This document shows positions 38,583-61,476 of a stretch of DNA of 64,000 nt, piece by piece (within the stretch, counting starts at the first letter, position 1; each line of letters begins with the position of its first letter). Source of the DNA: Croceivirga thetidis (GTDB lineage Bacteria > Bacteroidota > Bacteroidia > Flavobacteriales > Flavobacteriaceae); assembly GCF_012272815.1 (NCBI RefSeq), contig NZ_JAAWWL010000001.1, forward strand, positions 248,001 through 312,000, read 5' to 3'. The notes below the pieces were generated by a model, which ran no database searches, was not told the origin of the DNA, and saw only the letters and a program-made list of their open reading frames with translations. Made by a program: the position numbers and the translations under genes.

Positions 38583-39377
38583 ATGTTGTTCGAAGGCGTT
38601 CTACGTAAAATGACGACCGAATATCGGTCACCAATTCAATATTTTTTGATTCTTGAGGATGATGTACTGAACCTCAACCAGGCCTTAAATCGCAAACTCA
38701 AAATTGAGTTTATCAAATACCAGTGTTTGGGTACGGGCAAAAATGAACCCATTTACCGCCAAGGGTTCTGTAGGTCGTATTTTTTTGAATCTGCACAGGC
38801 CGGTGAATGGATCATGAAACCCGAACTCAGCAAGGCACATCTTGACATTGAAGACCGAGATCTGGAATACGAAAAGCGTGTGCAGTTGCAGCCCCATATC
38901 GTCTATTTGGCGAATAGCAGCAATGTAAAAGTGGGCGTGACCCGTAAAACGCAGGTACCCACAAGGTGGATTGACCAAGGTGCCCACGAAGCCTTGGAAA
39001 TCGTTGAAGTGCCCAACCGTTATTTGGCAGGTATTACCGAGGTGGCCTTAAAAGAACATGTCAGTGACAAAACCAGTTGGCAAAAGATGTTGAAAAACGA
39101 CGTTGAAGATGTCGACTTGGCCGAATGGCGTTCAAAATTAAAGGCCTACATCCCTGATGAGGCAGCTGAATATTTTATCGACTCCAAAACCGAAACCAAT
39201 TTGGAGTTTCCGGTGCTGCAATACCCTGAAAAAGTCAAAAGTTTGAACTTGGAAAAAACGCGCAGCTTTGAAGGGGTACTTAAAGGGATAAAAGGGCAAT
39301 ACCTCATCTTTGAAGACCAAACCGTGTTTAACGTTAGGGGGCATGAGGGGTACTATGTCGGATTGGATATCAATTAA
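38583..39377 (+). CDS. DUF2797 family protein
   Basis: 264 residues. The family's conserved stretches are visible: CLGTGKNEPIYRQGFCRSYFF near residue 50 (a putative metal site with Cys), HIVYLANSSNVKVGVTRKTQVPTRW around 105-130 (read in two parts; YLA..VKVG..R resembles a GIY-YIG-like start), and GGQ/KGQYL near the end. Function unknown. Head-to-head with GH3, a pairing found across Flavobacteriaceae. Confidence 0.8.
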   Translation: MLFEGVLRKMTTEYRSPIQYFLILEDDVLNLNQALNRKLKIEFIKYQCLGTGKNEPIYRQGFCRSYFFESAQAGEWIMKPELSKAHLDIEDRDLEYEKRVQLQPHIVYLANSSNVKVGVTRKTQVPTRWIDQGAHEALEIVEVPNRYLAGITEVALKEHVSDKTSWQKMLKNDVEDVDLAEWRSKLKAYIPDEAAEYFIDSKTETNLEFPVLQYPEKVKSLNLEKTRSFEGVLKGIKGQYLIFEDQTVFNVRGHEGYYVGLDIN

Positions 39378-39397
39378 ACCATTTTAAATAGAACACA

Positions 39398-40699
39398 ATG
39401 AACCTAAAAAATATACTATTGGCGCTAAGTGCCAGCTGTCTTTTCTTCGCTTGCAAAACCGAAAAAAAGGAAACAACAGTTGTCTTTGAAAAATTCCAAT
39501 TGGCCACCCCTGAATCGGTAGGCATGGTTTCCGATAGTTTGGCCAAAATAGCGGACTTGGTCAACGAATACGTCGCCGCCAAAAAATATCCAGGGGCAGT
39601 AACACTGATTGCCAAAAATGGAAAGATCATTTACGAATCTGAGGTAGGTTGGTCCGATACCACACGAACGGAACCCTATCGCAAAGACCACCTCTTTCGA
39701 TTGGCTTCGATGACCAAACCCATTGTTTCTGTAGCCGCCATGCAATTGGTGGAGCAAGGCAAACTTAAGTTGGAGGACCCTGTGGGCAAGTACATTCCCT
39801 CTTTTATGGAAACGGAGGTCTTGCAAGATTTCAATCCCGCTGATTCTTCGTACACCAGTGTGCCCAGCCAAAGTATCCCGACGGTAGCGCAACTGTTGAC
39901 ACATACGGCCGGGGTGCCCTACGGTTTTGTGAACCCACCGGTGTATGGTGCCATCTTGGCCAAAAACGGCATACCCGATTTGGCGACCCACCTGCCGATG
40001 ACCATTGAAGAGGCCGCTTCAAAATTGGGAGACCTGCCACTGACCCATGAACCGGGTTCACAATGGTTGTACGGCCTCAATACCGATGTCTTAGGCCGCG
40101 TGGTCGAAGTGGCCTCAGGCATGGCATTGGACGATTACGTTCGGGAGCATATTACACAACCCCTTGGGGTGGAGCATCTGGACTTTTATTTTCCAGATTC
40201 GCTGACCAGCAAATTGACCATACCCTATATGCCCACCCAAGATGGCACGGTAAGCCCACTACCAGAGTATATGGGGCCACTGTATATTCCCAACTATCCA
40301 ACGACTGGGGCCAAAACCTATATGAGCGGGGGCAGTGGAATGACAGGTACGGCCCGGGATTATTATTTGTTTTGCCAAGCGATGCTAAACGATGGTAGCT
40401 TGGGCGATGCGCAACTCTTAAAACCGGAAACCGCAAAGCTGATGCACCAAAACCAGTTAGATACCATCACCTATCCTTGGGGGGCGGGTGGCTTTGGTTA
40501 TGGCTTTCATGTAAGCACCGGTGAATCTGGCCGACCCGCAGGAAACTACAGTTGGGGTGGCGCCTTTAGTACTACTTTTTGGATAGACCCCACCAATGAA
40601 CTCGTGGTGATACAGCTACGACAGGTACTGCAATCACCCTATAACCAAGAAATTGATGGTAAATTGGCTCAGATCGTTTATGGGGCGTTGAAACAATAA
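39398..40699 (+). CDS. Serine hydrolase / beta-lactamase-family lipoprotein
   Basis: 433 residues. Lipoprotein signal (LLALSASCLFFAC, Cys19), then the class C beta-lactamase/esterase fold. The SxxK nucleophile is in LASMTKPIVS (about residue 108); a Tyr motif occurs at WLYGLNTDVLGR, and the third element is near GGSGMTGTARDY and YGFHVSTGESG. Such proteins are more often esterases or peptidases than drug-hydrolysing enzymes. The coding sequence is GC-richer than neighbours, giving long spurious antisense frames. Confidence 0.86.
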   Translation: MNLKNILLALSASCLFFACKTEKKETTVVFEKFQLATPESVGMVSDSLAKIADLVNEYVAAKKYPGAVTLIAKNGKIIYESEVGWSDTTRTEPYRKDHLFRLASMTKPIVSVAAMQLVEQGKLKLEDPVGKYIPSFMETEVLQDFNPADSSYTSVPSQSIPTVAQLLTHTAGVPYGFVNPPVYGAILAKNGIPDLATHLPMTIEEAASKLGDLPLTHEPGSQWLYGLNTDVLGRVVEVASGMALDDYVREHITQPLGVEHLDFYFPDSLTSKLTIPYMPTQDGTVSPLPEYMGPLYIPNYPTTGAKTYMSGGSGMTGTARDYYLFCQAMLNDGSLGDAQLLKPETAKLMHQNQLDTITYPWGAGGFGYGFHVSTGESGRPAGNYSWGGAFSTTFWIDPTNELVVIQLRQVLQSPYNQEIDGKLAQIVYGALKQ

Positions 40700-40724
40700 A
40701 CCGCAAAAACCAAAAATCTAAAAG

Positions 40725-40759
40725 TTGGGGTTGAGTATTGGCAAAACCCCAATTTTTTT
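40725..40759 (+). terminator. Rho-independent terminator after the serine hydrolase
   Basis: TTGGGGTT (40725-40732) pairs with AACCCCAA (40745-40752) and is followed by seven T residues. It marks the left edge of the restriction module region. Confidence 0.8.
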
Positions 40760-40904
40760 ATGGGGAAACCCTAAATAGCAAACTTCATTTTTTAATAAAC
40801 AGGGGTTTGTTTATTTTGGGGGAACCATTTACCAATCCCCTTTTACTTTTAAACTTTAAATCCTAATTTCTAACTAACCAAAGTCCGCTGACGCACAAAT
40901 ATTT

Positions 40905-41390
40905 ATGAACAAAAACAAATGGGTGCCCGGGGTAATTAAGGGACGAATTGCAGAAACTATTGTAGAGCAGCTTTTTATATCAATGGGGTTTCAAGTATTT
41001 AAATATGGAATGGAAAATTCCATTCCTGGTATTGCTGATTTGCTAAAGGGAGTTAGAGGCGATGTTTCTAAGAACATTCGTCAAATGCCAGATTTTGTGG
41101 TTTTTAAGGATAAGGAGGCTCATTTTATTGAAGTAAAATACCGTAAAAGTGGAAAGCTGGACTTAAAGGACATTGAAAATTATGGAGATTACCCCTTTAC
41201 CAATGCCTTATTTGTTTTGGTTACTCCAAAGCACATAAAATGTATTTCATACAAAGAGCTAAAAGAAGACAAGAAAATTCATGAAAAATGTAGAAATTGG
41301 TTGGGTAACCGTAAAGAATTTGAAACCTGTAAAGAACTGATTAGAGAGTATTGCGAGTATGCACTTAAGTTTTTTGAAAATGTTGATTAA
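40905..41390 (+). CDS. Stand-alone PD-(D/E)XK nuclease-fold protein
   Basis: 161 residues. Core motif is complete: Glu17 in the first helix (GRIAETIVEQLF), Asp63 in MPDFVVF, and Glu76-Val-Lys78 in HFIEVKYRKSG. This matches the catalytic triad of the restriction-endonuclease/Holliday-resolvase fold. The rest is a short helical tail. It is the first gene of a four-gene run, 6 nt before the methyltransferase. It may be an accessory cutting subunit or a control nuclease. No known system name fits it directly. Confidence 0.72.
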   Translation: MNKNKWVPGVIKGRIAETIVEQLFISMGFQVFKYGMENSIPGIADLLKGVRGDVSKNIRQMPDFVVFKDKEAHFIEVKYRKSGKLDLKDIENYGDYPFTNALFVLVTPKHIKCISYKELKEDKKIHEKCRNWLGNRKEFETCKELIREYCEYALKFFENVD

Positions 41391-41396
41391 TTCCAT

Positions 41397-44300
41397 ATGA
41401 GCCTGAACCAACCCCTTGAACAACTAAAATCCTTCCTCAATCAACTCTTCCAGTTCGATTCACAGGACTTGGATTTTGGTGTTTATAAAATTCTCCATTA
41501 CAAAAAGAAAGAAATTGCCAACTTCATTGACCAACTATTGGTAGACAAGGTAAAAGCAGAATTGCAGACTTTGTCAGCCGATGAAGCTAAGCAAGTCCAA
41601 GAGCAAATCTTAGAGTTTGAAAAGGATGATATCATCAAAGGATGGTTGGAAGCAGACGACAGTGAAAAGAAGACTCTTGAGAAGTTTGGTAAGGACAAAA
41701 TCAACCAATATCGAGAGCTAAAGGCCAAAGCCATTGAATCCTCTGTCTCTGTTGAAACTGAGAATCAGATTTACAACCATTTGACTTTATTCTTCTCTCG
41801 CTATTATGATAAAGGCGATTTTATCAGTAAACGAAGATTTGGTAAAAACGAGAAGTATGTAGTGCCTTATAACGGAGAAGAAACCCATTTTCATTGGGCT
41901 AATCAGGATCAATACTACATCAAATCATCTGAGACTTTCAACCACTATGCGTTTAAAGTGCAGACTGCAGATAGTAATCTTGTCGTGAATTTCAAACTAC
42001 ATAATGCACAACTTGAGCAAGGCAATGTAAAAGCCGAAGAAACCAACTTCTTTATGCTTTCTGATAAGTCGCCTGAAATCAAAGAAATAGACGAGAAGGA
42101 CCTACAATTTGTGCTAGCCAACAAGCAGCCTGATGTCAATGAAAAAGAAATAACCATCTACTTTGAGTACAGGCCACTGGGAGATGAAGAAAAGAAGAAA
42201 GTAAAAGGAAACAAAAAGCAAGATACTTTAGATGAATTAGCGTTTGATTTCTTAAAAAAGGAATTTGGCACCTATCCCACATTTGCCAATCTATGGAAAG
42301 AACAAGAGGGTAAACCTTTACTACTAAAAAAGCTTCAGCATTACACCCGAAAGAACAAGCACGATTTCTTTATTCACAAGAACTTGAAAGGCTTCTTAGA
42401 GCGTGAGTTGGATTATTACATCAAGAGTGAATTGGTAAACATAGATGACCTCTTTGTAACTGACACAGATTCACACTTTGACCGACTCAAGCACAACCTG
42501 AAAACCATTAAAATATTCAAGTCCATTGCCGACACCATCATTGAATTTGTTAGTCAGATTGAAGACTTCCAAAAAAAGCTGTGGGAGAAAAAGAAGTTTG
42601 TGTTAAGTACCGAATGGGTAATTACTATTGACCGCTTAGTAGAGTACCTAGGCGAAGAAGCTGCCAAACCCATTTTGGAAGAAGTCATTAAAAATGAAAA
42701 GCAGGTAGCGGAGTGGACTGATTTGTTTGGTGACAAGAGAGCTCCCAAAGCAATTGAAGACTTAAAAGCAGACTTGCATACTTGGAAAAAGCTACCAATT
42801 GATACTTCGTACTTCCCTACAGGATTTAAAATCGACCTTGTTAATTTACTTTCAAAGTCAATAAACTTATCAGATTCGCTAGATGGGCACATTTATGATT
42901 CAGATAATTACCATGGCCTTCATTTATTAAAGGAAGCCTATACTGGTAAGATTAACAATGTTTACATAGACCCTCCATACAATACGAGTGCTTCTGAGAT
43001 AATCTATAAAAATAGTTTCAAGCATTCTTCCTGGGCTTCCTTGATTGAGAACAGAATTGAAGTTGGGAAACCACTATTAAGTGTCAATGGGAATTTATGT
43101 GTAACTATTGATGATGTCGAGATGCCTTCACTTTCTATGATAATGTCCAAGATTCATGGACCAAAGAATATTGCAGGTGTTATAGCTATTCGTGCTAATC
43201 CCTCTGGAAGGCCAAATGAAGCAGGATTAGCAATTGCTCATGAATATGCGATTTTTGCTAAATCTAGTTCCGACTCAAAAATTAAAAAGCTTCCAAGAAC
43301 TGACGCTCAGTTAGAGAGATATAAAGAAAAAGATGATACGAGCATTTTTGAATGGAGAAATTTTAGAAGGGAAGGTTCAAACTCTGATAGAACAGATGGA
43401 AAACGACAATGGTACCCCGTTTACGCAAATCTCGCGGAAGGGACAATTCGAATACCTAAAATGGAGTGGCAAGATGAATCAGAACTGTGGTCGATTAAAG
43501 AGAAGCCGACAAAATCAGAAACTGAGATTTGGCCAATTACGGATGACGGAGTCGAGAAAAATTGGAGATGGAGTGAAGAGAATGTTCGTAAAGATTACTC
43601 ACAGTTTCTTACAAAAAGAAATAAGAAAGATTTTCCTCAAGTGTACTATAAATTCAGGCCTAACACGGACGGAATAACGCCTTTGACATTTTGGCAAGAT
43701 GCAAAATACTCCGCTACTGAGCACGGAACAAAAACATTAAAATCTTTATTTAATCAAGCCAAGTTTTCATATCCAAAATCAATTTGGGCTGTAAAGGATT
43801 GTTTGTACATCATGGGGAATGAGCGTAATTCAATAAATCTAGATTACTTCCCTGGTTCTGGGACTACATTTCATGCGGTTCAACTTTTGAATAAAGATGA
43901 TGATGGTGAAAGAAAGTGCTTACTTATTGAACAAGGACAATACTTTCATACTATTTTAGTTCCCCGAATTAAGAAAGTCGCCTATTCTTTCGATTGGAAG
44001 GATGGCAAACCCAAAGATGGCAGTATGAATGGTCTTGGGGTTTTTTTCAAGTACCAACGCTTAGAGCAATATGAAGAAGCCCTAGAAAACATAGCCTTCA
44101 ATGCTTCAGAAGATGCCATACAAAAAGCATTAGAATTTGAGCAGTACATCCCTAAATACTTTTTGGAGTTTGAAACTAAAGGCAGTCAAACCCTAGTGAA
44201 TACAGCCGTCATGCAAGACCCTTGGGATTACAAACTCAAGGTATGGGATGGCTTTACGTATGATACTGAGCAAGCCGTTGATTTGGTAGAAACCTTCAAC

Positions 44301-44576
44301 TACCTCATAGGGTTACACATGCAGAAATGTATCACTAAAGAACTCAATGGCAAAAAGTACCAATTCATTTACGGTCACAACAATGCCAATAAAAACATTT
44401 TGGTGGTATGGCGCTCAGTAAAAGATTGGAATGTAAATGATTTCAAAGCAGATGCAGCCACATTAAAAACAGAACTCAAAACCTTTGAATATGACCTACT
44501 CTACATCAATGACCAGGCACATATAGAAGGTTATCAACCCATTGAAGAAGTATTCAAAAACAAAATGCTACCATAA
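41397..44576 (+). CDS. Type III-like DNA adenine methyltransferase (Mod)
   Basis: 1059 residues, longer than classical Type III Mod (about 550-680). The catalytic motif IDPPYNT has its Asp at residue 525 and the SAM-binding motif FPGSGTT is at 818, i.e. motif IV before motif I as in beta-class N6-adenine enzymes; the roughly 290 residues between them should hold the target recognition region. About 490 residues precede the catalytic core, with charged helical segments, and about 200 follow. It is 2 nt upstream of the helicase gene. It should protect host DNA by methylating adenine at a specific site. Confidence 0.88.
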   Translation: MSLNQPLEQLKSFLNQLFQFDSQDLDFGVYKILHYKKKEIANFIDQLLVDKVKAELQTLSADEAKQVQEQILEFEKDDIIKGWLEADDSEKKTLEKFGKDKINQYRELKAKAIESSVSVETENQIYNHLTLFFSRYYDKGDFISKRRFGKNEKYVVPYNGEETHFHWANQDQYYIKSSETFNHYAFKVQTADSNLVVNFKLHNAQLEQGNVKAEETNFFMLSDKSPEIKEIDEKDLQFVLANKQPDVNEKEITIYFEYRPLGDEEKKKVKGNKKQDTLDELAFDFLKKEFGTYPTFANLWKEQEGKPLLLKKLQHYTRKNKHDFFIHKNLKGFLERELDYYIKSELVNIDDLFVTDTDSHFDRLKHNLKTIKIFKSIADTIIEFVSQIEDFQKKLWEKKKFVLSTEWVITIDRLVEYLGEEAAKPILEEVIKNEKQVAEWTDLFGDKRAPKAIEDLKADLHTWKKLPIDTSYFPTGFKIDLVNLLSKSINLSDSLDGHIYDSDNYHGLHLLKEAYTGKINNVYIDPPYNTSASEIIYKNSFKHSSWASLIENRIEVGKPLLSVNGNLCVTIDDVEMPSLSMIMSKIHGPKNIAGVIAIRANPSGRPNEAGLAIAHEYAIFAKSSSDSKIKKLPRTDAQLERYKEKDDTSIFEWRNFRREGSNSDRTDGKRQWYPVYANLAEGTIRIPKMEWQDESELWSIKEKPTKSETEIWPITDDGVEKNWRWSEENVRKDYSQFLTKRNKKDFPQVYYKFRPNTDGITPLTFWQDAKYSATEHGTKTLKSLFNQAKFSYPKSIWAVKDCLYIMGNERNSINLDYFPGSGTTFHAVQLLNKDDDGERKCLLIEQGQYFHTILVPRIKKVAYSFDWKDGKPKDGSMNGLGVFFKYQRLEQYEEALENIAFNASEDAIQKALEFEQYIPKYFLEFETKGSQTLVNTAVMQDPWDYKLKVWDGFTYDTEQAVDLVETFNYLIGLHMQKCITKELNGKKYQFIYGHNNANKNILVVWRSVKDWNVNDFKADAATLKTELKTFEYDLLYINDQAHIEGYQPIEEVFKNKMLP

Positions 44577-44578
44577 CC

Positions 44579-47500
44579 ATGCAACTAGAAAAACAACTTG
44601 TCCTTTTCAGGTACATCTTGCATCAGTTGGGTTATGAAGCCTTTGAAGACTTGCGAGATGAGTTTAACTGCAAAGAGTCAGGCACTAGTTCAACGGGCTA
44701 TACCTATTTTGCCAGTGCTTTAATGTCTAACTCAGACAAACTCATTGAAGATAGAGAGATACAGCAATACGATGAAGCCATCCAGGGCTATGAGAAAAAA
44801 CTCCGAGAAAACCGAGCTGAACCGTTTCTCACATTCAAATACTACCAATGGTTTGCCTTGCTATTCACCGAGTACTTTTTTGACCAATACAGCAACAATT
44901 CAAATCAACTAATTACCAAGCTGAATGAATATGCTGAAGGAAGCAAAGACTTTAAGCAAATAGAAGTCTACTCAGAAAAAGACTTGAAGAAATTGGCTTA
45001 TTGGATGGCTACCGGAAGTGGCAAAACCCTTTTGATGCATTGCAACTATTGGCAAATCACTAAGTATTTCAAAGAATGGGAAAACATCATTCTAATAACC
45101 CCAAATGAAGGATTAAGCAGGCAACATTATGAAAGTTGTATTGAAAGTGGTATTCCTGTAAAGCTCTATTCAGGAAGTGAAGAAAGCCTAAAAACAAAAG
45201 AAGGTGAAATACTCATTTTAGAGATTACTAAATTGGTTAAAGACAAGGAGGGAGAAGGTGTAAGTGTGGATGTCGATTACTTCTCAGAGTCAAAGAACTT
45301 AGTATTCATTGATGAAGGACACAAGGGACAAAAGTCCGAAGAAAGAGCATGGAAGAATCTTAGAGAGCATTTGACTCGTGGCGAAGGTTCTTTCACCTTC
45401 GAGTATTCAGCAACCTTTGGTCAGATCATCACCAACAGCACTAAAGACTTATTACAGGAATACGGTAAGTCCATCATTTTTGACTACTCCTATCGCCATT
45501 TCTATACAGATGGTTATGGCAAAGACTTTAGTGTGTTCAACCTTGACACCAAAAACGAATACAGTGAGGAACAAAATAAGCTACTTCTTGCAGCTAGTTT
45601 GTTAGGTTATTACGAGCAGCTTGAACTGTTTGAGAAATATGAAAAAGAGCTGCGCCAATACAATATCGAGAAGCCTCTTTGGGTATTTGTTGGAAGCCGT
45701 GTAATTGGCACTGGTAAAACACAATCGGATAAATCGACTGTCTCTGATGTTTCTAGGATTATAAAGTTCTTTAAGTATGCACTTGCATCACCTGCTTCTT
45801 TGCAAGTGGATATTGACAAAATACTTAATGAAAGCACAGGGCTAAGAGATGCAGATGGAAATGACATTTTCAAAGGACACTTTGAACACCTTCGAACATT
45901 TAAACCCATAGCTGAATCTATCCTTAGCAAAGTATTCAATGGTATTGGAAACATAGAAGCATTTCAAGTAAAACAGGCAGAAGGTGAAATTGCGTTAAAG
46001 ACAAAAACCAGTGATCAGTACTTTGCCGTCATTAATATTGGTGATGTACCGAAGTATACCAAAACACTTGAAGCAGATACTGAAGGAGAATTGACCATTC
46101 AAGATGATAATTTTTCCAACTCATTATTTCAAGCCATTTCAGAGACTAACTCTACCATCAATATCCTAATTGGATCTAAGAAGTTTATCGAAGGTTGGAA
46201 CTCATGGAGAGTTTCAAGTATGGGTCTTATGAACATGGGTAAAAGTGAAGGTGCTCAAATCATTCAGTTGTTTGGTCGTGGTGTTCGTCTAAAAGGTAAA
46301 AACCTATCCCTAAAACGAGAAGAAGCTAACGCTCCTTACCATATCCGAGCACTACAGAACATTTCAATAATGGGCTTGAACGCTTCTTACATGAATCGTT
46401 TCTTAACGGAAATAGAAAAAGAAGTTCCTGATTACACCAATATTCCAATAGAAATCAAACTCAACCATGAAGAGCTGTGGGATGGACAAATAATGACCTT
46501 CAAAAAGCAAGAAGGAAAATCCTTTAAGGATGAACTGATTGAATTGAAATATAGCGCAGATGTGGCGAAAAGGGTTACTATTGACATGCGTAATAAAATC
46601 AGCATTGCAGCAGGTGGTTTCAATAGCCAGGTGGCAGAAGATGTTTTAGACTATCAGGAGAATTTCCTCAAGGAGTTTCGAGACTTTATCGACTACAACG
46701 CTCTTTTATTGGAAGCCAACAGATTCAAGTTGCTTAAAGGGTATCACAACTTAATTGTAAATCAACTTGTGCTATCCGAGCTTATAGCAAGTGGCGGCTT
46801 CAATCTATTAAGTCACAAAGGTCAATTTGGCATCAACGGAGCTATTTTAGGCAAAATACAGGGAGTTGCTGTGAGCTTGGTAAAAGACTATATCAATAAG
46901 TTCTATGCTGATAAAGAAAAGGCTTTCCTTTCCGAACACCTTACTTATGATATGCTCTCACACAAAGAGCATGAAGCAATGTTCCCCGCTTCTCATACTA
47001 TGATTGTGAAGGTGCCCAAAAAACAAGATTTGTTCATTAAAGAATTAGAAGCTAAGATAAAAGTGATGTATGAGAAGGATGATACGACGCTTCCATCTAT
47101 TCACTTTGATAAGCACCTTTACTCGCCGATTGCCTCAATAGCTGATGGCAAGAAGTTCAAAGAGATTAAAACTGTTCCTGTACGGTTAAATGAAGGTGAA
47201 AGAGACTTTATAGACCATTTGCGCCAGTTCGTAAAGGAATCAGATAAATTCAAGCACAAACAGCTATTTGTGCTCCGTAACCTATCGGTTAAGGGTATTG
47301 GTTTCTTTATGGATAGCTCTTCATTTTACCCTGACTTTATCCTTTGGGTAGTTGATGGCAAAACGCAGTACATCTACTTCCTTGATCCGAAGGGGATTTT
47401 ACTAGGAGAAACACACTTCAATAATCCCAAAGTATTATGGTGCAATAACGATGCATCCACTTTGGAAGCTAAAATTCAAGCTGACTTAAAAAATGACAAA

Positions 47501-47674
47501 AAAGACGTTGAAGTTCACATTTCGGCATTCATTCTATCAGTAACACCGTTTGAAAAAGTCAGAAAGGTTTGGAGCGATGGTAATGTTACTAAAGATGATT
47601 TTGCTGAGAACAAGGTGCTTTTTATTGAGAAGAATAAGTCTTACTTAAGTTCAATATTTGGACATATAGAGTGA
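44579..47674 (+). CDS. Type III-like restriction subunit (Res): helicase plus nuclease
   Basis: 1031 residues. SF2 motor: Walker A ATGSGKT (144-150), DEGH motif II (Asp245), SAT motif III (about 277) and motif VI QLFGRGVR (from 563). C-terminal nuclease: PDF with Asp919 and, in the ExK position, DPK (Asp936-Pro-Lys938), a PD-(D/E)XK site with Asp in place of Glu. It should translocate or slide on DNA with ATP and cut it when two unmodified sites are found. Encoded 2 nt after mod and overlapping the next gene by 1 nt. Confidence 0.9.
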   Translation: MQLEKQLVLFRYILHQLGYEAFEDLRDEFNCKESGTSSTGYTYFASALMSNSDKLIEDREIQQYDEAIQGYEKKLRENRAEPFLTFKYYQWFALLFTEYFFDQYSNNSNQLITKLNEYAEGSKDFKQIEVYSEKDLKKLAYWMATGSGKTLLMHCNYWQITKYFKEWENIILITPNEGLSRQHYESCIESGIPVKLYSGSEESLKTKEGEILILEITKLVKDKEGEGVSVDVDYFSESKNLVFIDEGHKGQKSEERAWKNLREHLTRGEGSFTFEYSATFGQIITNSTKDLLQEYGKSIIFDYSYRHFYTDGYGKDFSVFNLDTKNEYSEEQNKLLLAASLLGYYEQLELFEKYEKELRQYNIEKPLWVFVGSRVIGTGKTQSDKSTVSDVSRIIKFFKYALASPASLQVDIDKILNESTGLRDADGNDIFKGHFEHLRTFKPIAESILSKVFNGIGNIEAFQVKQAEGEIALKTKTSDQYFAVINIGDVPKYTKTLEADTEGELTIQDDNFSNSLFQAISETNSTINILIGSKKFIEGWNSWRVSSMGLMNMGKSEGAQIIQLFGRGVRLKGKNLSLKREEANAPYHIRALQNISIMGLNASYMNRFLTEIEKEVPDYTNIPIEIKLNHEELWDGQIMTFKKQEGKSFKDELIELKYSADVAKRVTIDMRNKISIAAGGFNSQVAEDVLDYQENFLKEFRDFIDYNALLLEANRFKLLKGYHNLIVNQLVLSELIASGGFNLLSHKGQFGINGAILGKIQGVAVSLVKDYINKFYADKEKAFLSEHLTYDMLSHKEHEAMFPASHTMIVKVPKKQDLFIKELEAKIKVMYEKDDTTLPSIHFDKHLYSPIASIADGKKFKEIKTVPVRLNEGERDFIDHLRQFVKESDKFKHKQLFVLRNLSVKGIGFFMDSSSFYPDFILWVVDGKTQYIYFLDPKGILLGETHFNNPKVLWCNNDASTLEAKIQADLKNDKKDVEVHISAFILSVTPFEKVRKVWSDGNVTKDDFAENKVLFIEKNKSYLSSIFGHIE

Positions 47675-48657
47675 TGACCAAAATAGAGATTCATGAGCAC
47701 GTGCTTCAATTTTTGATTGAACAAAAGATTAATTTTTTACCAAGACAAACGAATCGAGATAATAAACTGAAAAAGCAAGAATGGTTTTTAAATGGACCAG
47801 GTTACAATTGTTTTTCTTTCTGGACTGGTTTTGATGGTGATAGAAAAGTTCCAAAAATAGCATTGTTTTTCAGTTTAGAAGCACCATTTCAACTAAGATT
47901 GGTTCTTAATTCAAGAAGCGATTTCTCGGCTCTGTCTTTATTGGAGAATATTGCCAATGATTTGGGGTTAAAACCAAAACCAAATCGGAAAAACGAATGG
48001 TCAAAGATTCTTGGAAAAAAACTTAGCGAAATTTTAGAATTACAAATAGCCATTAAAGAATTCATCAATAATGAAAGACTTATAATTGACGAATTGGTTG
48101 ACAAACATAACCATCCAAAAATTAAATCGATTTCCGATGAAAAATTTCTTAAAGTAATTACCAACCTCAATAAATATAGAGATACAAAAAACCGACTTGA
48201 TTTTTCATCATCAAATATCGTTGGAGCTAGAAAAAGACTCAAAAGAAAAGGGGTAAAGTCAAAATCTGAAGAGACAGAAATACGTTCTTTTCTAGCCGAA
48301 AGACTAGCAATAAAGAAAACACATAACAAGCTCCAAAATCAGTTGTTCAAAAACCTTTCGAAAAAACACCCACAGGGCCATTTGATAATGGAAGAGAATT
48401 ATATTGATTTAAAGTTTGAAGATGATAAAACTATTTCCTTGTACGAAGTAAAACCTTATTCCTCTGTAAATCGTTGCATAAAAGAATCATTGGGTCAACT
48501 AATGGGATATTATTACAATCTTCAAAATCCTCATAACAAAACCGTTCAACTATTTATTGCAGGACCTAATGAACTAAGTAATTCAGATAAGGACTATTTA
48601 AACTTTATCAAAAATCAACTAGAAACTGATTTAGACTACTTAGCTATTGATTTATAA
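47674..48657 (+). CDS. Second PD-(D/E)XK nuclease-fold protein of the restriction module
   Basis: 327 residues from the ATG at 47674, which overlaps the res stop by one base (TGATG); a GTG one codon upstream is possible. Residues 1-220 are a Lys-rich, mostly helical region with a possible beta start (GPGYNCFSFWTGFDGDRK). The C-terminal domain carries Asp245 (NYIDLKF), Glu258-Val-Lys260 (LYEVKPYSS) and Gln275 (SLGQLMGYYY), the PD-(D/E)XK triad with a trailing Gln. The tight coupling to mod-res implies a role in the same system. Confidence 0.72.
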   Translation: MTKIEIHEHVLQFLIEQKINFLPRQTNRDNKLKKQEWFLNGPGYNCFSFWTGFDGDRKVPKIALFFSLEAPFQLRLVLNSRSDFSALSLLENIANDLGLKPKPNRKNEWSKILGKKLSEILELQIAIKEFINNERLIIDELVDKHNHPKIKSISDEKFLKVITNLNKYRDTKNRLDFSSSNIVGARKRLKRKGVKSKSEETEIRSFLAERLAIKKTHNKLQNQLFKNLSKKHPQGHLIMEENYIDLKFEDDKTISLYEVKPYSSVNRCIKESLGQLMGYYYNLQNPHNKTVQLFIAGPNELSNSDKDYLNFIKNQLETDLDYLAIDL

Positions 48658-48670
48658 AATCCTACGATTA

Positions 48671-50329
48671 TTATTCCTTCTTTTTTTCATCATCTGGTTT
48701 TTTAACTATTGGTTTAAGTGATTCTTTTTTAGGCTTTTCGATAAGGTCAATAGCATTTATAGTATTTATAGCTTTTAATTCATTTTTGGATAGTGCTTCT
48801 TTGGTCAAATATATTCTCCTTTTTTTTCCAGTAGATTCGTCTTTCCCGATACTCTCAAAATACAAACGAAATTTTTTGGTTTGGAGCAGTTTTACTGTTG
48901 GCTTTTCTAATATTCTATTTAACCAACCGTAGAAAAGTACTGGGTCATCATCTTCAAAAAGGTAAACCTTCTCCTGGTAGCCGTACCTGTCAATTTTTAA
49001 TATGTAATTTTTGATAGAGTCCTTACTTTCTACATTTGCTTTGACTTCAAAAACCTTCTTGCAGTAATCATATTTAGAAATTGTAGGTTCTTCTAGCTGT
49101 GATATGTCATCATCGGCTATTCTATAAAATTTTACACGATCATCAAACTCACCAATATTATTGCCAATTTCAAGATTCTTCACACCACGAACCACTCCGT
49201 CATATGCAACATCAAAGGAGAACTCCATGTCTTCTGTTTCATTACACTGTATATAACCTACATTGTAACGCTTAACATCTATTTTATTGGCCTCATTTAG
49301 GTCGTATTCATTGAACATATTGGAAAAATCAAAGACATTTGCTGACTGCCCCTCCTTAAACTTCATTGTGGCCGTTAATACCACATTATCGGTAATACCT
49401 GCCAAAGGGCGTCCTCTCTGCGCTACAGTAATTGTTTTAGGGGTAAAGGAAAAACTTGTTTTAATGGTGCTCTTTTTTAAGGTCAGATTCTCTTTGATAT
49501 TTTCTGTGTTATTGTAACCTAATTCAGCAGAAACACCCTGGTTCACTTCGCTGGAATTTGATGTTGAATCGGTTTGAGTTGTATTATTGCTTTGATTTGA
49601 ACCACTTAGTACACTAGAAGTTGGCGTTTCACTTGCATCAAATTCATTCTGAGTATCAGAATTATTTGTGCCCGTTGTAGATTCTGAAACTGTATTTGAA
49701 GAATTTCCATTGTTGATTTTAGCGCCTAATTCTGCAGCAATCTTACTGTTAAACGTAACCTCGTTGGTCCTTTCTAATGTCCCTAAATCTATAGTTTCCA
49801 GTTCATTTTCTATACGATCAATCGAGTAAATCTTTATGTTACTATTATTTAAGCATAAAGTGGTATTTAAAAACTCTAATCTAGTATTGTCATGCATTAG
49901 ACTATCATGGGTATAGAATTTTTTAATATTTGAAAATAAAAATCGCGCTTTAAAACTTGTTAAGTTAATATCACTTTTAGAGGTTGTCTTTTTTTTTGGT
50001 TCCTCGACTTTACTTAAAGGTTCTTTTATTAACTCAATTATTTTGGCTGCTGAATTTGTGTTGTCCCCTAGAACTTTTAACAAGGTATGCGGTATACTAT
50101 CTCGCAAATCAAAAAAGGTTTTGGCCTTTTCTTTTTCTTTTTTCGGTTCAGAAGGCAAAGGAAGTAGACTCACAGAAACATCAATGAAATTGTCATTTTT
50201 AACACTAGAATCATATTCGTAGGGACCATTTTTCCAATGAGAAATTTCTGTGGTAGCACCACAAGAAATTAATAACATTATAAAAGTGAAAATGCTTATA
50301 ATATTCTTTAAAAATGTTCGCTTTTTCAT
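48671..50329 (-). CDS. Large lipoprotein with low-complexity linker, unknown function
   Basis: 552 residues. Signal with Cys23 (FTFIMLLISC). Residues about 190-265 are a Ser/Asn/Thr-rich linker (NSSNTVSEST, NQSNNTTQTD) lying between two short similar segments ending AELG. The C-terminus is Lys/Pro rich (KPKKESLKPIVKK). No family recognised. It is convergent with the restriction module and 3 nt downstream of the small gene at 50333-50821; base composition is lower in G+C than in the core genes around it. Confidence 0.6.
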   Translation of the reverse strand: MKKRTFLKNIISIFTFIMLLISCGATTEISHWKNGPYEYDSSVKNDNFIDVSVSLLPLPSEPKKEKEKAKTFFDLRDSIPHTLLKVLGDNTNSAAKIIELIKEPLSKVEEPKKKTTSKSDINLTSFKARFLFSNIKKFYTHDSLMHDNTRLEFLNTTLCLNNSNIKIYSIDRIENELETIDLGTLERTNEVTFNSKIAAELGAKINNGNSSNTVSESTTGTNNSDTQNEFDASETPTSSVLSGSNQSNNTTQTDSTSNSSEVNQGVSAELGYNNTENIKENLTLKKSTIKTSFSFTPKTITVAQRGRPLAGITDNVVLTATMKFKEGQSANVFDFSNMFNEYDLNEANKIDVKRYNVGYIQCNETEDMEFSFDVAYDGVVRGVKNLEIGNNIGEFDDRVKFYRIADDDISQLEEPTISKYDYCKKVFEVKANVESKDSIKNYILKIDRYGYQEKVYLFEDDDPVLFYGWLNRILEKPTVKLLQTKKFRLYFESIGKDESTGKKRRIYLTKEALSKNELKAINTINAIDLIEKPKKESLKPIVKKPDDEKKKE

Positions 50330-50332
50330 AAT

Positions 50333-50821
50333 TTATAATATTTCAAAGATTGAATAAATTTGGGTTGTTGAACTTCCCATGCATTCATTAGGGTCGGTCT
50401 CATGAAATCTAGCAATTATTTCATCGCCTATACTTACACCGTTACAACTAATCGCACCGTCATTTACTGAATAATATTCTGTTGAAGAAGGTAACGGCAC
50501 ATCATCTCCAGGATCCAAATCATCAGTATTTTCAAGAATTCTGATAATATCTCCTTTCTTTAAATTATCGAAAAAATCAAGTCTAGATGTAGAATCAAAA
50601 TTAAAATCAGTGAATAGATGATTTATTTTAGTTCTTGCATAGGCGTGATTATAATTTGTTTGTCTAATGAAATTGACTACTTTATTTTGATTGGTTTCTA
50701 AGGTAACACTAATGAATTTACCATTATTCATTAAAAAATACTTGCCCGTATCCTTATTCAACCATTTTATTTTTTTATCACTTTCCAATTTTTGAAAAGC
50801 TGTTTGCATTTCAGAATTCAT
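50333..50821 (-). CDS. Small protein of unknown function
   Basis: 162 residues, no signal peptide. The first half is basic (MQTAFQKLESDKKIKWLNKD) and a KKGDIIRILENTDDLDPGDD stretch lies near 87-106, followed by three Cys in the last 45 residues. I do not recognise it. It lies 3 nt upstream of the lipoprotein gene, so the two probably form an operon opposite the restriction module. Confidence 0.52.
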   Translation of the reverse strand: MNSEMQTAFQKLESDKKIKWLNKDTGKYFLMNNGKFISVTLETNQNKVVNFIRQTNYNHAYARTKINHLFTDFNFDSTSRLDFFDNLKKGDIIRILENTDDLDPGDDVPLPSSTEYYSVNDGAISCNGVSIGDEIIARFHETDPNECMGSSTTQIYSIFEIL

Positions 50822-51227
50822 CTTTTCTTTTTTGCCTTACATTGAAGTGGTAAATATATTTTTTCAATAAAATGTGTTCCATACCCAAATATGGGTATTT
50901 TAAAGAGCGGGGGGATTTATGAGCGTATTAACCAAAATCGAAAATTTCCCTTACAACTTAAACTAAACTATTTTGTTTTTGAGTTGGGCGAGGGAGACTT
51001 GTGGTTGACTATTATTTAAATATAACAATTGTGTATTAAAATGGGAAACACATTTAACCCTAGCATTTCTATTTTGAAAATGTCCCAACTAATGATTTAG
51101 TGATAACATCTACGGAGAGATAACAGACAATTTTTCTAAAGAATAAAAACCAAAAAGACGTTTAAATAGTATTGGTTTTATTCTCCGATAACCCGTTGAA
51201 TCGAGTTTTTGAGTACAGTCCTAAACC
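50822..51227. other. 406-bp gene-free stretch at the right edge of the accessory block
   Basis: No convincing ORF or RNA gene. It holds a short inverted repeat ATACCC/GGGTAT (50881-50898) and, 44 nt past the AsmA stop, a hairpin of GAATAAAAACCAA (51141-51153) with TTGGTTTTATTC (51172-51183), which may end the asmA transcript on the minus strand. A promoter for the 50821 gene should lie at its left end. Together with the terminator at 40725 it frames the 10-kb accessory block. Confidence 0.5.
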
Positions 51228-53936
51228 CTAAGGTAAATCCGGTTTCGTAGAATCCTTCTTTTTCTTCTTCCCTAACAATCCTCCAAGAATATTAGTGGCC
51301 GCATCTTTTACTGCATCTTTTTGTTCCGTAGAATCAGTGGCTGTGCTGTCTTTCTTTTTTCCCAACAAACCACCAAGGGCATCCGCTAGCCCAGAACCCT
51401 GGGTTTGGGTGGAGTCGGTTTTCTCGCCGCCCAATAGTCCGCCGATTAAATCTTTGGCCTTTTCCTTGCCCTGGTCGAGGAGTTTTTGTTTTTGAATTTC
51501 CACCAATTGTTTGGTCAAGTTTGACACTCCCGAAGTTAAATCTGTGGTGACCTTGGGGCTGGTGTAATTACCGCCAATATTGGCGATGACCGGTATGGTC
51601 AACTCTTTTAAACTATCGTCGTTAATTTGGGCAATCAGCTTGTTCACCTCAGCACCCAAATATTTGGCCGGCACATCAAGCGTCGCCTGGTATTGCAGTT
51701 GCGCATCAAAGGTATGCGTACCCCATAGGTTGATGGCGATGTCTTTGTATTTGAGTGAAATCGGTTTGGTGGCCACTTTACCATCTTTAAAAGAGAGGGC
51801 TGTTTTTAAATCGCTTACATCAAGCTTATCAAAATCGATAAAGTCGAATTTTTGGTCCAAAGCGGCAAGGGCCGGGGCATTTCGGGTATCTACTTTGGTC
51901 GATAGCAATTGCCCCAACAAATCCCCAGAAAGGGAGCCCAAACTTGGGGTCATGTCATCTTTCAGGTTTCCGGAAAGTTTAATGTCGGAGTTCAGCTTGC
52001 CCTGAAAAGCCTTCGCGACAGGGGCCAATACTTTAAAGAGGTCCAAGGCCTGAAAAGATTCTGCGATTTTAAAGCCCTCAATACCAAGGCCCATATCAAA
52101 AGTGGAGATTTCACCTTTGGTGCTTACCGTGCCATTCATCGCCAGTTTTCCATCAAAAATATCGGAACTCAGATTTTCTAAAGTTGCCGTTTCGTCCTTG
52201 ACCAACAAACGCCCTTTTATATTTTTGAGGTTTAGGTTGTCGTACAATACCGAGTTGGCAAAAGCATCAATGGTGGCATCCAAGAAACTGGGTATTTTAA
52301 TCCGCTCCGTAGTTTGGGTTGGCACATCTTCTTCAAGTGTCTCCTCATCAACGGCTTCTTCCACCATAAAATCATTTACGGCAAAGGTGTTGGACTGCAG
52401 CTTAAACCGGCCTTCCAGATTTTCATCGTTAAAGGCATAGCCCAACAAATTCGTCAAAGTACCTGTGGCTGCAAAATCAGTTTGGCCCGTCTTTCCACTG
52501 AATTTATCCAAAGAAACCGTTGTCGGATTAAAGGTCAAAGCGGCTTCTTGTATGTCGACCGGATTTTTCAACTCTTCCGATTCGTAATGAAACCCGCTTA
52601 GACTCGCCTTACCACTGGTTTTGGTGTTTTGGTATTGGTGGTTTTCCAAAGAAGCCATATCAAAGGCGGTGGTGACGTCCGCAGTCAGTAGTCCTGTAAG
52701 TCCGTAATCGGCCGGCATGGGATAGGCCTTTGAAATGTTGGCCAAATTTATCTTTCCGTCGGCATGCATATTCACCTTGGTGTTACCCAACAACTCCCGA
52801 ATCTTGGCATTTAGGTTGAATTTATCCTCATCAATCTGAAAACTCAGGCGATTAATATTGACATAAGTGTCTTCTGTGATGCCGGTTTCGTTGTTGATTT
52901 GGGTATCGATAAACACATTGCGTACCGCCTTGGGCAAATCGGCATATTTAAACGAAGCGTTGTTTGAATTGATGTTGATGTTAAAGGTGGGAATATGGTC
53001 ATCGTCCACAATTCCTTTAAACTGCCCATCCACTTCAAAATTACCGGTAGTAGTCACCCCATCAAGATTGCTGGCATAGGCTTCAGGAATCACGGCCAAA
53101 AAGTTTTTAAAGTCCGAAGAAGGGGTTTTGAATGAAATGTCCACTTCTTGGTTCTCCTCATTGACTTTTACAAAACCGTCAAACACCAAAGGCAGTTGGT
53201 TCACTAAGGCCTTGTTTTCTAAAAAGGAATATTTGTTTTCGTTTAAATCGATGCCGATTAGGGCATCAAGTGCCACCTTGTTTTTATTCAGGTATTGGGT
53301 ACTGTCCATCTCAAAAGACACCAAGGCATCCGTTTTGGTCTGCAATTGTGAATTCGCCAACGACAAATCTCCCGAACCGGAATGGTTCATTTCAGAAATG
53401 ACCAAGTGCATACCTGTGGCAAAATCGTCATAGATAACCTCGGCATTGGTGATGGCATACTCCTGTAAATCCAACATAAAGTTGGAAGCTTTTTCTTCTG
53501 TAGCAGGTGCTGTTGTTTCCTCCTCCAAGGCAATGTCGTAATTCGCATTCTCCTCGGCATCCACTTTAATGTGCAGCTTGGCCTTGTCCAACAACAATTT
53601 CTTGATACCTATCGGTTCTTCAGCCGATTTAAAGAGCTCTTTGATTGACATATCCAATTCAATATCTCCAGCTGAAAACAGCGTATCGCCTTCAAAGGGA
53701 GCCTTGTTGACCAATGAAACGCCTTTTAAATCCACATAAGCATCTGGGAAACTTTTGATTAGGCTCAGATTGGCATCCTCAAAATCAAGGGTGGCATTCA
53801 TGCTTTGGTTTGCCTTGTTCTTGATAATGTCAGCAATCTTCGCTTCCAGAAAAAAAGGTACCGCGATTAGCAATCCTATTAAAACCAAAAGGGTAATCAC
53901 TACTATTTTTAAGACGCGTTTTTTCTTTTTTGCCAT
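51228..53936 (-). CDS. AsmA-like envelope protein
   Basis: 902 residues. One N-terminal membrane helix (about 8-30, VITLLVLIGLLIAVPFF), then a very long repetitive beta-strand-rich region typical of AsmA/TamB-like bridge proteins, with the AsmA-like C-terminal domain around 600-790 (LKGRLLVKD, ISTFDMGLGIEGF). The C-terminal tail has repeated LGGLLG-KKKDST units. Family members are tied to phospholipid transport between inner and outer membranes. It is the largest ORF of this segment, and stands alone. Confidence 0.84.
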   Translation of the reverse strand: MAKKKKRVLKIVVITLLVLIGLLIAVPFFLEAKIADIIKNKANQSMNATLDFEDANLSLIKSFPDAYVDLKGVSLVNKAPFEGDTLFSAGDIELDMSIKELFKSAEEPIGIKKLLLDKAKLHIKVDAEENANYDIALEEETTAPATEEKASNFMLDLQEYAITNAEVIYDDFATGMHLVISEMNHSGSGDLSLANSQLQTKTDALVSFEMDSTQYLNKNKVALDALIGIDLNENKYSFLENKALVNQLPLVFDGFVKVNEENQEVDISFKTPSSDFKNFLAVIPEAYASNLDGVTTTGNFEVDGQFKGIVDDDHIPTFNININSNNASFKYADLPKAVRNVFIDTQINNETGITEDTYVNINRLSFQIDEDKFNLNAKIRELLGNTKVNMHADGKINLANISKAYPMPADYGLTGLLTADVTTAFDMASLENHQYQNTKTSGKASLSGFHYESEELKNPVDIQEAALTFNPTTVSLDKFSGKTGQTDFAATGTLTNLLGYAFNDENLEGRFKLQSNTFAVNDFMVEEAVDEETLEEDVPTQTTERIKIPSFLDATIDAFANSVLYDNLNLKNIKGRLLVKDETATLENLSSDIFDGKLAMNGTVSTKGEISTFDMGLGIEGFKIAESFQALDLFKVLAPVAKAFQGKLNSDIKLSGNLKDDMTPSLGSLSGDLLGQLLSTKVDTRNAPALAALDQKFDFIDFDKLDVSDLKTALSFKDGKVATKPISLKYKDIAINLWGTHTFDAQLQYQATLDVPAKYLGAEVNKLIAQINDDSLKELTIPVIANIGGNYTSPKVTTDLTSGVSNLTKQLVEIQKQKLLDQGKEKAKDLIGGLLGGEKTDSTQTQGSGLADALGGLLGKKKDSTATDSTEQKDAVKDAATNILGGLLGKKKKKDSTKPDLP

Positions 53937-61263: not shown

Positions 61264-61336
61264 GCGAAAATAGCTCAGTTGGTAGAGCATCACCTTGCCA
61301 AGGTGGAGGTCGCGGGTTCGAATCCCGTTTTTCGCT
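61264..61336 (+). tRNA. tRNA-Gly (anticodon GCC)
   Basis: 73 nt cloverleaf: acceptor GCGAAAA pairs with TTTTCGC, discriminator T; D arm CTCAGTTGGTAGAG; anticodon arm CACCTTGCCAAGGTG with GCC; T arm GCGGGTTCGAATCCCGT. No CCA encoded. The anticodon reads GGC/GGU. Confidence 0.95.
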
Positions 61337-61340
61337 CAAA

Positions 61341-61363
61341 AACGCTGCTTGCAGCGTTTTTTT
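61341..61363 (+). terminator. Rho-independent terminator after tRNA-Gly
   Basis: AACGCTGC (61341-61348) pairs with GCAGCGTT (61351-61358); the T run extends to 61363. It begins 5 nt after the tRNA, so the downstream tRNA-Leu should need its own promoter or readthrough. Confidence 0.75.
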
Positions 61364-61380
61364 ATTTAAGTCCTAAAGTT

Positions 61381-61465
61381 GCTCGAGTGGTGGAATTGGT
61401 AGACACGCCGGACTTAAAATCCTGTGGGCATTTTGCCCGTGCGGGTTCAAGTCCCGCCTCGAGTA
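61381..61465 (+). tRNA. tRNA-Leu (anticodon TAA)
   Basis: 85 nt class II tRNA. Acceptor GCTCGAG pairs with CTCGAGT (first pair G-T wobble), discriminator A. Anticodon loop CTTAAAA gives TAA, reading UUA. Long variable arm with stem GGGC/GCCC; T arm GCGGGTTCAAGTCCCGC. The anticodon stem CCGGA/TCCTG contains one C-T mismatch at its second pair. No CCA encoded. Confidence 0.93.
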
Positions 61466-61476
61466 CTAATAATTGC

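Follow-up and report, generated by a model that had tools for sequence, protein, structure and literature searches.

A type III restriction-modification pair beside two apparently swappable nuclease-like genes in a strain-variable island of Croceivirga thetidis

The window, a stretch of 64,000 nucleotides from Croceivirga thetidis (assembly GCF_012272815.1, contig NZ_JAAWWL010000001.1, positions 248,001 to 312,000 of the forward strand), carries a cluster of four genes that we call A, mod, res and D. We consider it probable that this cluster is a type III pair assembled in a strain-variable island together with two independently mobile nuclease-like genes. The cluster is a composite of known kinds of component and a recurrent, unannotated, restriction-associated nuclease family, and its outer genes look like swappable parts, not fixed members of a four-gene machine. 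Gene order, domains and catalytic residues, the switching of A between partners, the modularity of D and the insertion itself were all observed directly.

Organization of the cluster and its genomic insert

An earlier note on this DNA described four tightly packed genes, and we find the same arrangement: in the list of open reading frames of the window, four co-directional plus-strand frames fill 40905-48657, with 6 nt between A and mod, 2 nt between mod and res, and the res stop overlapping the D start as TGATG. The features of the region are as follows.

38583-39377, DUF2797 gene, left flank of the insert
39378..51227, no strand, strain-variable insert containing the cluster, flanked by DUF2797 and an AsmA-like gene
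40812..40819, plus strand, TATTTTGG block upstream of A, identical in 7/7 aligned upstream regions
40905..41390, plus strand, gene A, 161 aa, PD-(D/E)XK protein with D63, E76 and K78
41397..44576, plus strand, mod, 1059 aa, type III DNA methyltransferase with DPPY and FPGSGTT
44579..47674, plus strand, res, 1031 aa, type III restriction subunit, helicase with C-terminal PD-(D/E)XK motif
47671/47674..48657, plus strand, gene D, 328/327 aa, predicted chimera of an N-domain (about 1-175) and a PD-(D/E)XK domain (about 200-328)
51228-53936, AsmA-like gene (named by eye), right flank of the insert

Gene D starts either at GTG 47671, as called by the ORF finder, or at ATG 47674, and it is the ATG numbering that gives D245, E258 and K260. 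The TATTTTGG block is near the Bacteroidota -7 consensus TAnnTTTG, and we take it to be a possible promoter element; scans for sigma-70 promoters (29 versus 23.5) and for terminators (5 versus 5.5) were both close to chance.

The window DNA can be aligned with that of two congeners (G718 and G164) until 39377, and the alignment resumes at about 51252-51262; the cluster is missing at the corresponding site in both (L089 and L090). The distance from the DUF2797 gene to the AsmA-like gene is 11.9 kb in the window, 2.1 kb in G718, where the interval consists of two ORFs of 155 and 400 aa (the latter without a Pfam match), and 0.35 kb in G164, where it is nearly empty. Besides the four-gene cluster, the insert contains a Beta-lactamase-family (PF00144) hydrolase gene, which retrieved only paralogues when used as a query in the two congeners, and two genes without a Pfam match. 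Its ends show neither a tRNA nor a convincing direct repeat, such repeats being short or imperfect, and the tRNAs of the window lie solely at 61264-61466. The G+C content is 0.34 for A, 0.37-0.38 for mod and res and 0.31 for D, compared with 0.42-0.44 for the flanking genes, and this inequality among the parts fits piecewise assembly. Two low-G+C minus-strand genes without a Pfam match, at 48671-50329 and 50333-50821, are convergent with D, and the product of the former has a lipoprotein-like N-terminus by eye.

The Mod-Res pair

The middle pair had been read as type III, and profile searches and motif alignments bear this out. Mod matches the PADLOC MTase_III profile (PDLC03646, 5.6e-159, residues 12-1040) and Pfam N6_N4_Mtase (2.6e-17), and its relatives in the PDB include Mbo45V (5.1e-29) and EcoP15I Mod (6.9e-14). 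Res matches PADLOC REase_III (PDLC03654, 2.6e-123, best stretch 294-1027) and Pfam ResIII (2.4e-13); a phmmer search with Res returned nothing at 1e-3. Alignment with five other Mod proteins places DPPY before FPGSGTT, and alignment with six other Res proteins reveals a Walker A motif, DEGH, SATF, GRGVRLKG and a C-terminal YPDF...FLDPKG. The identity to the aligned homologues is 32-38%, and the PD...(D/E)P(K/H) motif is present. With a beta-class methyltransferase (DPPY, FxGxG) and an SF2 helicase joined to a C-terminal PD-(D/E)XK domain, Mod-Res is, as judged from its sequence, an ordinary type III restriction-modification pair. It shares with EcoP15I and the Mbo45V Mod family the beta-class order of DPPY before FxGSGTT, a helicase-nuclease Res and the mod-res pairing, but differs from them in the 1059-aa Mod with its long N-terminal extension and in the two extra nuclease-like genes on either side. 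Here, as for the outer genes below, we infer all enzymatic functions, as well as a common transcript and the way in which the four genes share the work: as in other type III systems, Mod would methylate one strand of an asymmetric site, and Res would translocate and, with ATP, cut between head-to-head sites that are unmethylated.

Matches to Res at 1e-10 were found in 3 of 199 family genomes, the window's included (the G058 relative has 38% identity over the full length and the G152 match is partial), and in 33 plasmid records. In-line accessory genes occur elsewhere on this Mod/Res branch: a helicase gene, ATP-dependent or SNF2-type, precedes mod in five of the seven plasmid loci examined (L071-L074 and L076), and in one of the seven (L073) AAA and DUF4276 genes separate mod from res. 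Such accessories, like the tight spacing with its TGATG overlap, the intact cores of both outer proteins and a 187-aa gene near res in L070 that is PD-(D/E)XK-like by eye and lacks a Pfam match, would be expected if the cluster were a dedicated four-component extended type III system with A and D as required subunits. We nevertheless judge this improbable, because its parts were found apart. The combination occurs only in the window's genome among the samples searched, some of which may omit near-identical genomes; in tblastn searches at 1e-3, the window's Mod, Res and D were unmatched in all 18 remaining intact loci that carry A, its Mod and Res in all 10 loci with relatives of the D domains, and A and D in the seven plasmid loci and in L049, the locus of the G058 relative. 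A also lacks an adjoining type III mod-res in 17 of 19 intact loci. Both outer genes thus occur mostly away from mod-res, an outcome that the earlier note had named as one that would refute its proposal. What the earlier note had proposed thus survives in part: two extra nuclease-fold proteins do stand beside a type III mod-res, and their catalytic residues are kept, not lost, in homologues, but the four-gene combination, proposed to be an extended system, was seen once. A fixed four-gene system was rejected on that ground.

Two further arrangements around relatives of this pair deserve mention. In L049 (3297-4792), an ORF that resembles Mod is set apart from the relative of Res by two genes, one a Fic gene (Pfam 2e-11), the other 348 aa long, RhuM-like by eye and unmatched in Pfam. 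The 187-aa gene of L070 (9088-9651) is convergent with the mod-res of a haloarchaeal plasmid.

Gene A and its neighbours

The PD-(D/E)XK cores that had been assigned to the outer genes are conserved in both, each retaining the D...(D/E)XK residues: D63, E76 and K78 of A are invariant in 17/17 aligned members (alignment A8), and D245, E258 and K260 of D in 5/5. A does not reach the cut-off of any family in Pfam, NCBIfam or PADLOC. Its family has weak Pfam similarity to VRR_NUC (17/17 members, best 4.9e-4), DpnII (10/17, best 2.3e-4) and Hjc (4/17), and it resembles the DpnII, VRR-NUC and Hjc nucleases to that extent; the window copy, however, scores under the gathering score for all three, and its relatives carry, in addition, a zinc ribbon and long motifs that do not vary; KGRI, YGME and HIKC are among those invariant across the 17 rows. 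The N-terminal zinc ribbon (C4, C7, C18, C21) is found in 16 of the 17 aligned proteins, and only the window copy is without it: this protein begins directly past the ribbon position, although the DNA upstream still aligns with that of the relatives, and it may behave differently from them. Comparison with eight relatives gave pS values of 0.64-0.83, with synonymous sites near saturation, and pN values of 0.08-0.11, which indicates strong purifying selection. On these sequence comparisons A is not a spurious ORF; the same possibility was rejected for D on the strength of its conserved relatives. The structural model of A is of low confidence (mean pLDDT 52), and its weak Foldseek resemblance to a Holliday-junction resolvase (E 0.2) is uninformative; phmmer against the PDB found nothing, and a profile search gave ribosomal-protein noise.

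The A profile matched in 14 of 397 family genomes, a count that includes the window's genome, fragments in G753 and G598, a weak match in G752 and a broken copy in G011. Across the phylum it matched in 5 of 395 genomes, at six places, again with the window's genome. The single sequence as query found 7 of 199 family genomes, the window's included, and, in a separate set, four named genomes; the closest named relatives are Muricauda/Flagellimonas of the Flavobacteriaceae. No match appeared in the plasmid search and no relatives in the viral-contig scan. The counts that follow refer to 19 intact loci encoding 17 distinct proteins (the window, L012-L016, L021-L024, L031-L035 and L063-L066) and exclude G079, G752 (weak), the G753 and G598 fragments, the broken G011 copy (L017) and a Phocaeicola plasmid match (H4).

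In 12 of these 19 loci (raw count) A adjoins a restriction gene on the same strand at 0-65 nt, adjacency in four type IIG loci being counted to F8, a small gene that leads into the IIG gene. The partners are of several types. Type III genes adjoin A twice, in the window (gap 6) and in L013 (gap 2), whose mod-res has no match to the window's; type IIG genes four times (L021-L024), through the common 216-aa F8; an Eco57I-type methylase once (L063, 1 nt overlap); and type I genes five times, following A in L016, L064 and L065 and preceding it in L033 and L034, the HsdR of L033 being broken. A thus precedes the restriction genes in 10 of the 12 loci and follows HsdR in two. In the A tree, one clade (97/97) unites copies beside type III, IIG and Eco57I-type genes with copies beside no restriction gene, which argues that A switches partners. 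From sequence and neighbourhood, A appears to be a recurrent restriction-associated family that combines a zinc ribbon with a PD-(D/E)XK core and has neither name nor annotation.

The remaining seven loci (L012, L014, L015, L031, L032, L035 and L066) lack a restriction gene at this distance from A, so that its association with restriction is not an obligate one. Near A in these loci are a convergent McrBC-component gene (L012), a Fic gene about 0.2 kb upstream (L014), an Old-like ATPase gene 10 nt upstream (L032), an HNH gene 69 nt upstream (L035) and a type I operon 1.4 kb away, past an opposite-strand gene (L066); no defence-like neighbour was found in L015 or L031. Such loci keep alive a second explanation, by which A is a passenger of islands, such as a nuclease that serves the recombination or transfer of mobilisable elements, and adjoins restriction genes only because they share an insertion spot; D would be a stand-alone defence gene that happened to insert after res. 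The relaxase- or primase-type mobilisation genes upstream of A in L013, L014, L021-L024 and L066 (with Pfam confirmation in L013) are in keeping with this, as is the weak likeness of the low-confidence A model to a Holliday-junction resolvase. The close, same-strand placement beside restriction genes or F8 in 12 loci is not, and we regard the passenger explanation as rather unlikely.

In the reading that we prefer, A would be a Bacteroidota accessory nuclease, repeatedly placed in the operon of an island's restriction system, be it type I, II/IIG or III, and would most likely aid the processing or destruction of restricted DNA, not the choice of target. The three restriction classes (I, II and III) are regarded as mechanistically separate. 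One conserved nuclease family found repeatedly beside all three would point to a common step after recognition or cutting, for which fragment degradation, a block to re-ligation or control are candidates and which has had no named component so far. A more far-reaching and tentative proposal makes A a 'universal' accessory of restriction in Bacteroidota: a PD-(D/E)XK nuclease with a zinc ribbon that would plug into systems of type I, II/IIG or III and enhance or complete their action regardless of enzyme class, while the promoter and A stay in place as a constant head and entire systems are exchanged behind them; the window copy would have shed its ribbon and been joined by a new one-gene sensor-nuclease, D, with a Septu/McrB-type N-domain. 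A literature search of titles and abstract openings did not find an accessory nuclease common to several restriction types, and one may exist in print beyond those parts of the sources. WYL-domain regulators, which are reported to co-localise with diverse defence systems (PMC9122601), are comparable to A in that members of one family are found repeatedly next to defence systems of unrelated kinds, but they are transcription factors, unlike a zinc-ribbon PD-(D/E)XK protein.

F8 (e.g. L022, 10487-11137; 216 aa) intervenes between A and the type IIG enzyme, of which two different ones occur in these loci, and may therefore be a restriction accessory too; the L022 copy has no match in Pfam or PADLOC. 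In L034 (8536-12909) HsdR, A and a T5orf172-domain gene are tightly packed on one strand, and the same genome holds a second, identical A adjoining a broken HsdR (L033). The broken A of L017, outside the locus count, is fairly near a DISARM DrmA gene.

Gene D and its domains

The earlier description of D did not include its PtuA-type N-terminal domain. Residues 1-181 match the first 188 of 584 positions of the PADLOC PtuA1 profile (PDLC00287, 1.6e-13), and the same domain heads PtuA proteins beside PtuB (L018, L047) as well as AAA_5 (McrB-like) proteins beside a McrBC-component gene (L020, L048). The AAA_5 protein of L048 has an EVE domain as well, and there EVE, rather than the common N-domain, may be the modification reader. 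The N-domain matched no Pfam family, had no relatives in the viral-contig scan and gave no usable AlphaFold model (pLDDT <40).

For the C-domain (200-328) AlphaFold gave a confident model, with pLDDT 65-91 in the blocks from residue 211 on and an alpha-beta-beta-beta-alpha-beta order. Along with the catalytic triad, a downstream Q is invariant in 5/5 aligned C-domains, the invariant positions being H, N, Q, E, ID, E-x-K, GQ and Y, and the domain carries a Q-x3-Y motif. The best Foldseek match of D was the nickase N.BspD6I (E 1.2e-3), with nothing at 1e-3 or better; phmmer against the PDB gave only E values of 0.07-0.13, and neither a profile search with the C-domain nor a phage search with D found a match. 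Behind other N-terminal regions the C-domain recurs in a type I locus (L019), before AbiH (L039), after genes that include a restriction S subunit (L040), in a locus without annotated defence context (L041) and on two viral contigs (L042 and L043). Whole D matched in 4 of 199 family genomes, its own included, and the other three matches span one domain only; the N-domain profile matched in 3 of 395 phylum genomes and the C-domain profile in 3 of 199 family genomes, with the window's genome in both. D has a two-domain layout of interchangeable parts, adjoining a methyltransferase operon, and its sequence indicates a chimera of a Septu/McrB-type N-domain and a modular PD-(D/E)XK domain.

The match to the N-terminus of PtuA1 links D with Septu (PtuA/PtuB), but D has a PD-(D/E)XK domain in place of the ATPase and no neighbouring PtuB; assignment of D to Septu was rejected because there is no ATPase domain and no PtuB match among the four proteins. 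Septu is reported to cleave a tRNA (PMC13096335), so the common N-domain need not concern DNA modification; the word 'Septu' has no occurrences in the passages of PMC11090510 that the analysis covered. D is also like the type IV systems (McrBC; EVE-HNH), which cut only modified DNA and need no cognate methyltransferase, in joining an extra domain to a nuclease and in an N-domain that heads McrB-like proteins. It differs from McrBC in lacking a GTPase and in having an N-domain without a Pfam match. EVE-HNH is a sensor-nuclease fusion of the type IV, modification-dependent kind (PMC7897488), and by layout D resembles such a one-protein, type IV-like sensor-nuclease.

In the preferred reading D, which begins within the stop of res, would be a sensor-nuclease made of one polypeptide, and it most likely would provide a second, type IV-like line against DNA or an infection state that escapes Mod and Res. 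Its G+C of 0.31, below that of mod and res, suggests that it may have joined the cluster late and may not be functionally coupled to it. D is a further case of a domain that has moved, here between Septu, proteins of the McrB-like kind and a nuclease of plain build, and this spread makes the role of the N-domain directly testable. In L048 (4832-10348), a retron-type reverse transcriptase gene (RT_III-A, 2.5e-128) lies directly upstream of the McrBC-like pair that carries the N-domain of D.
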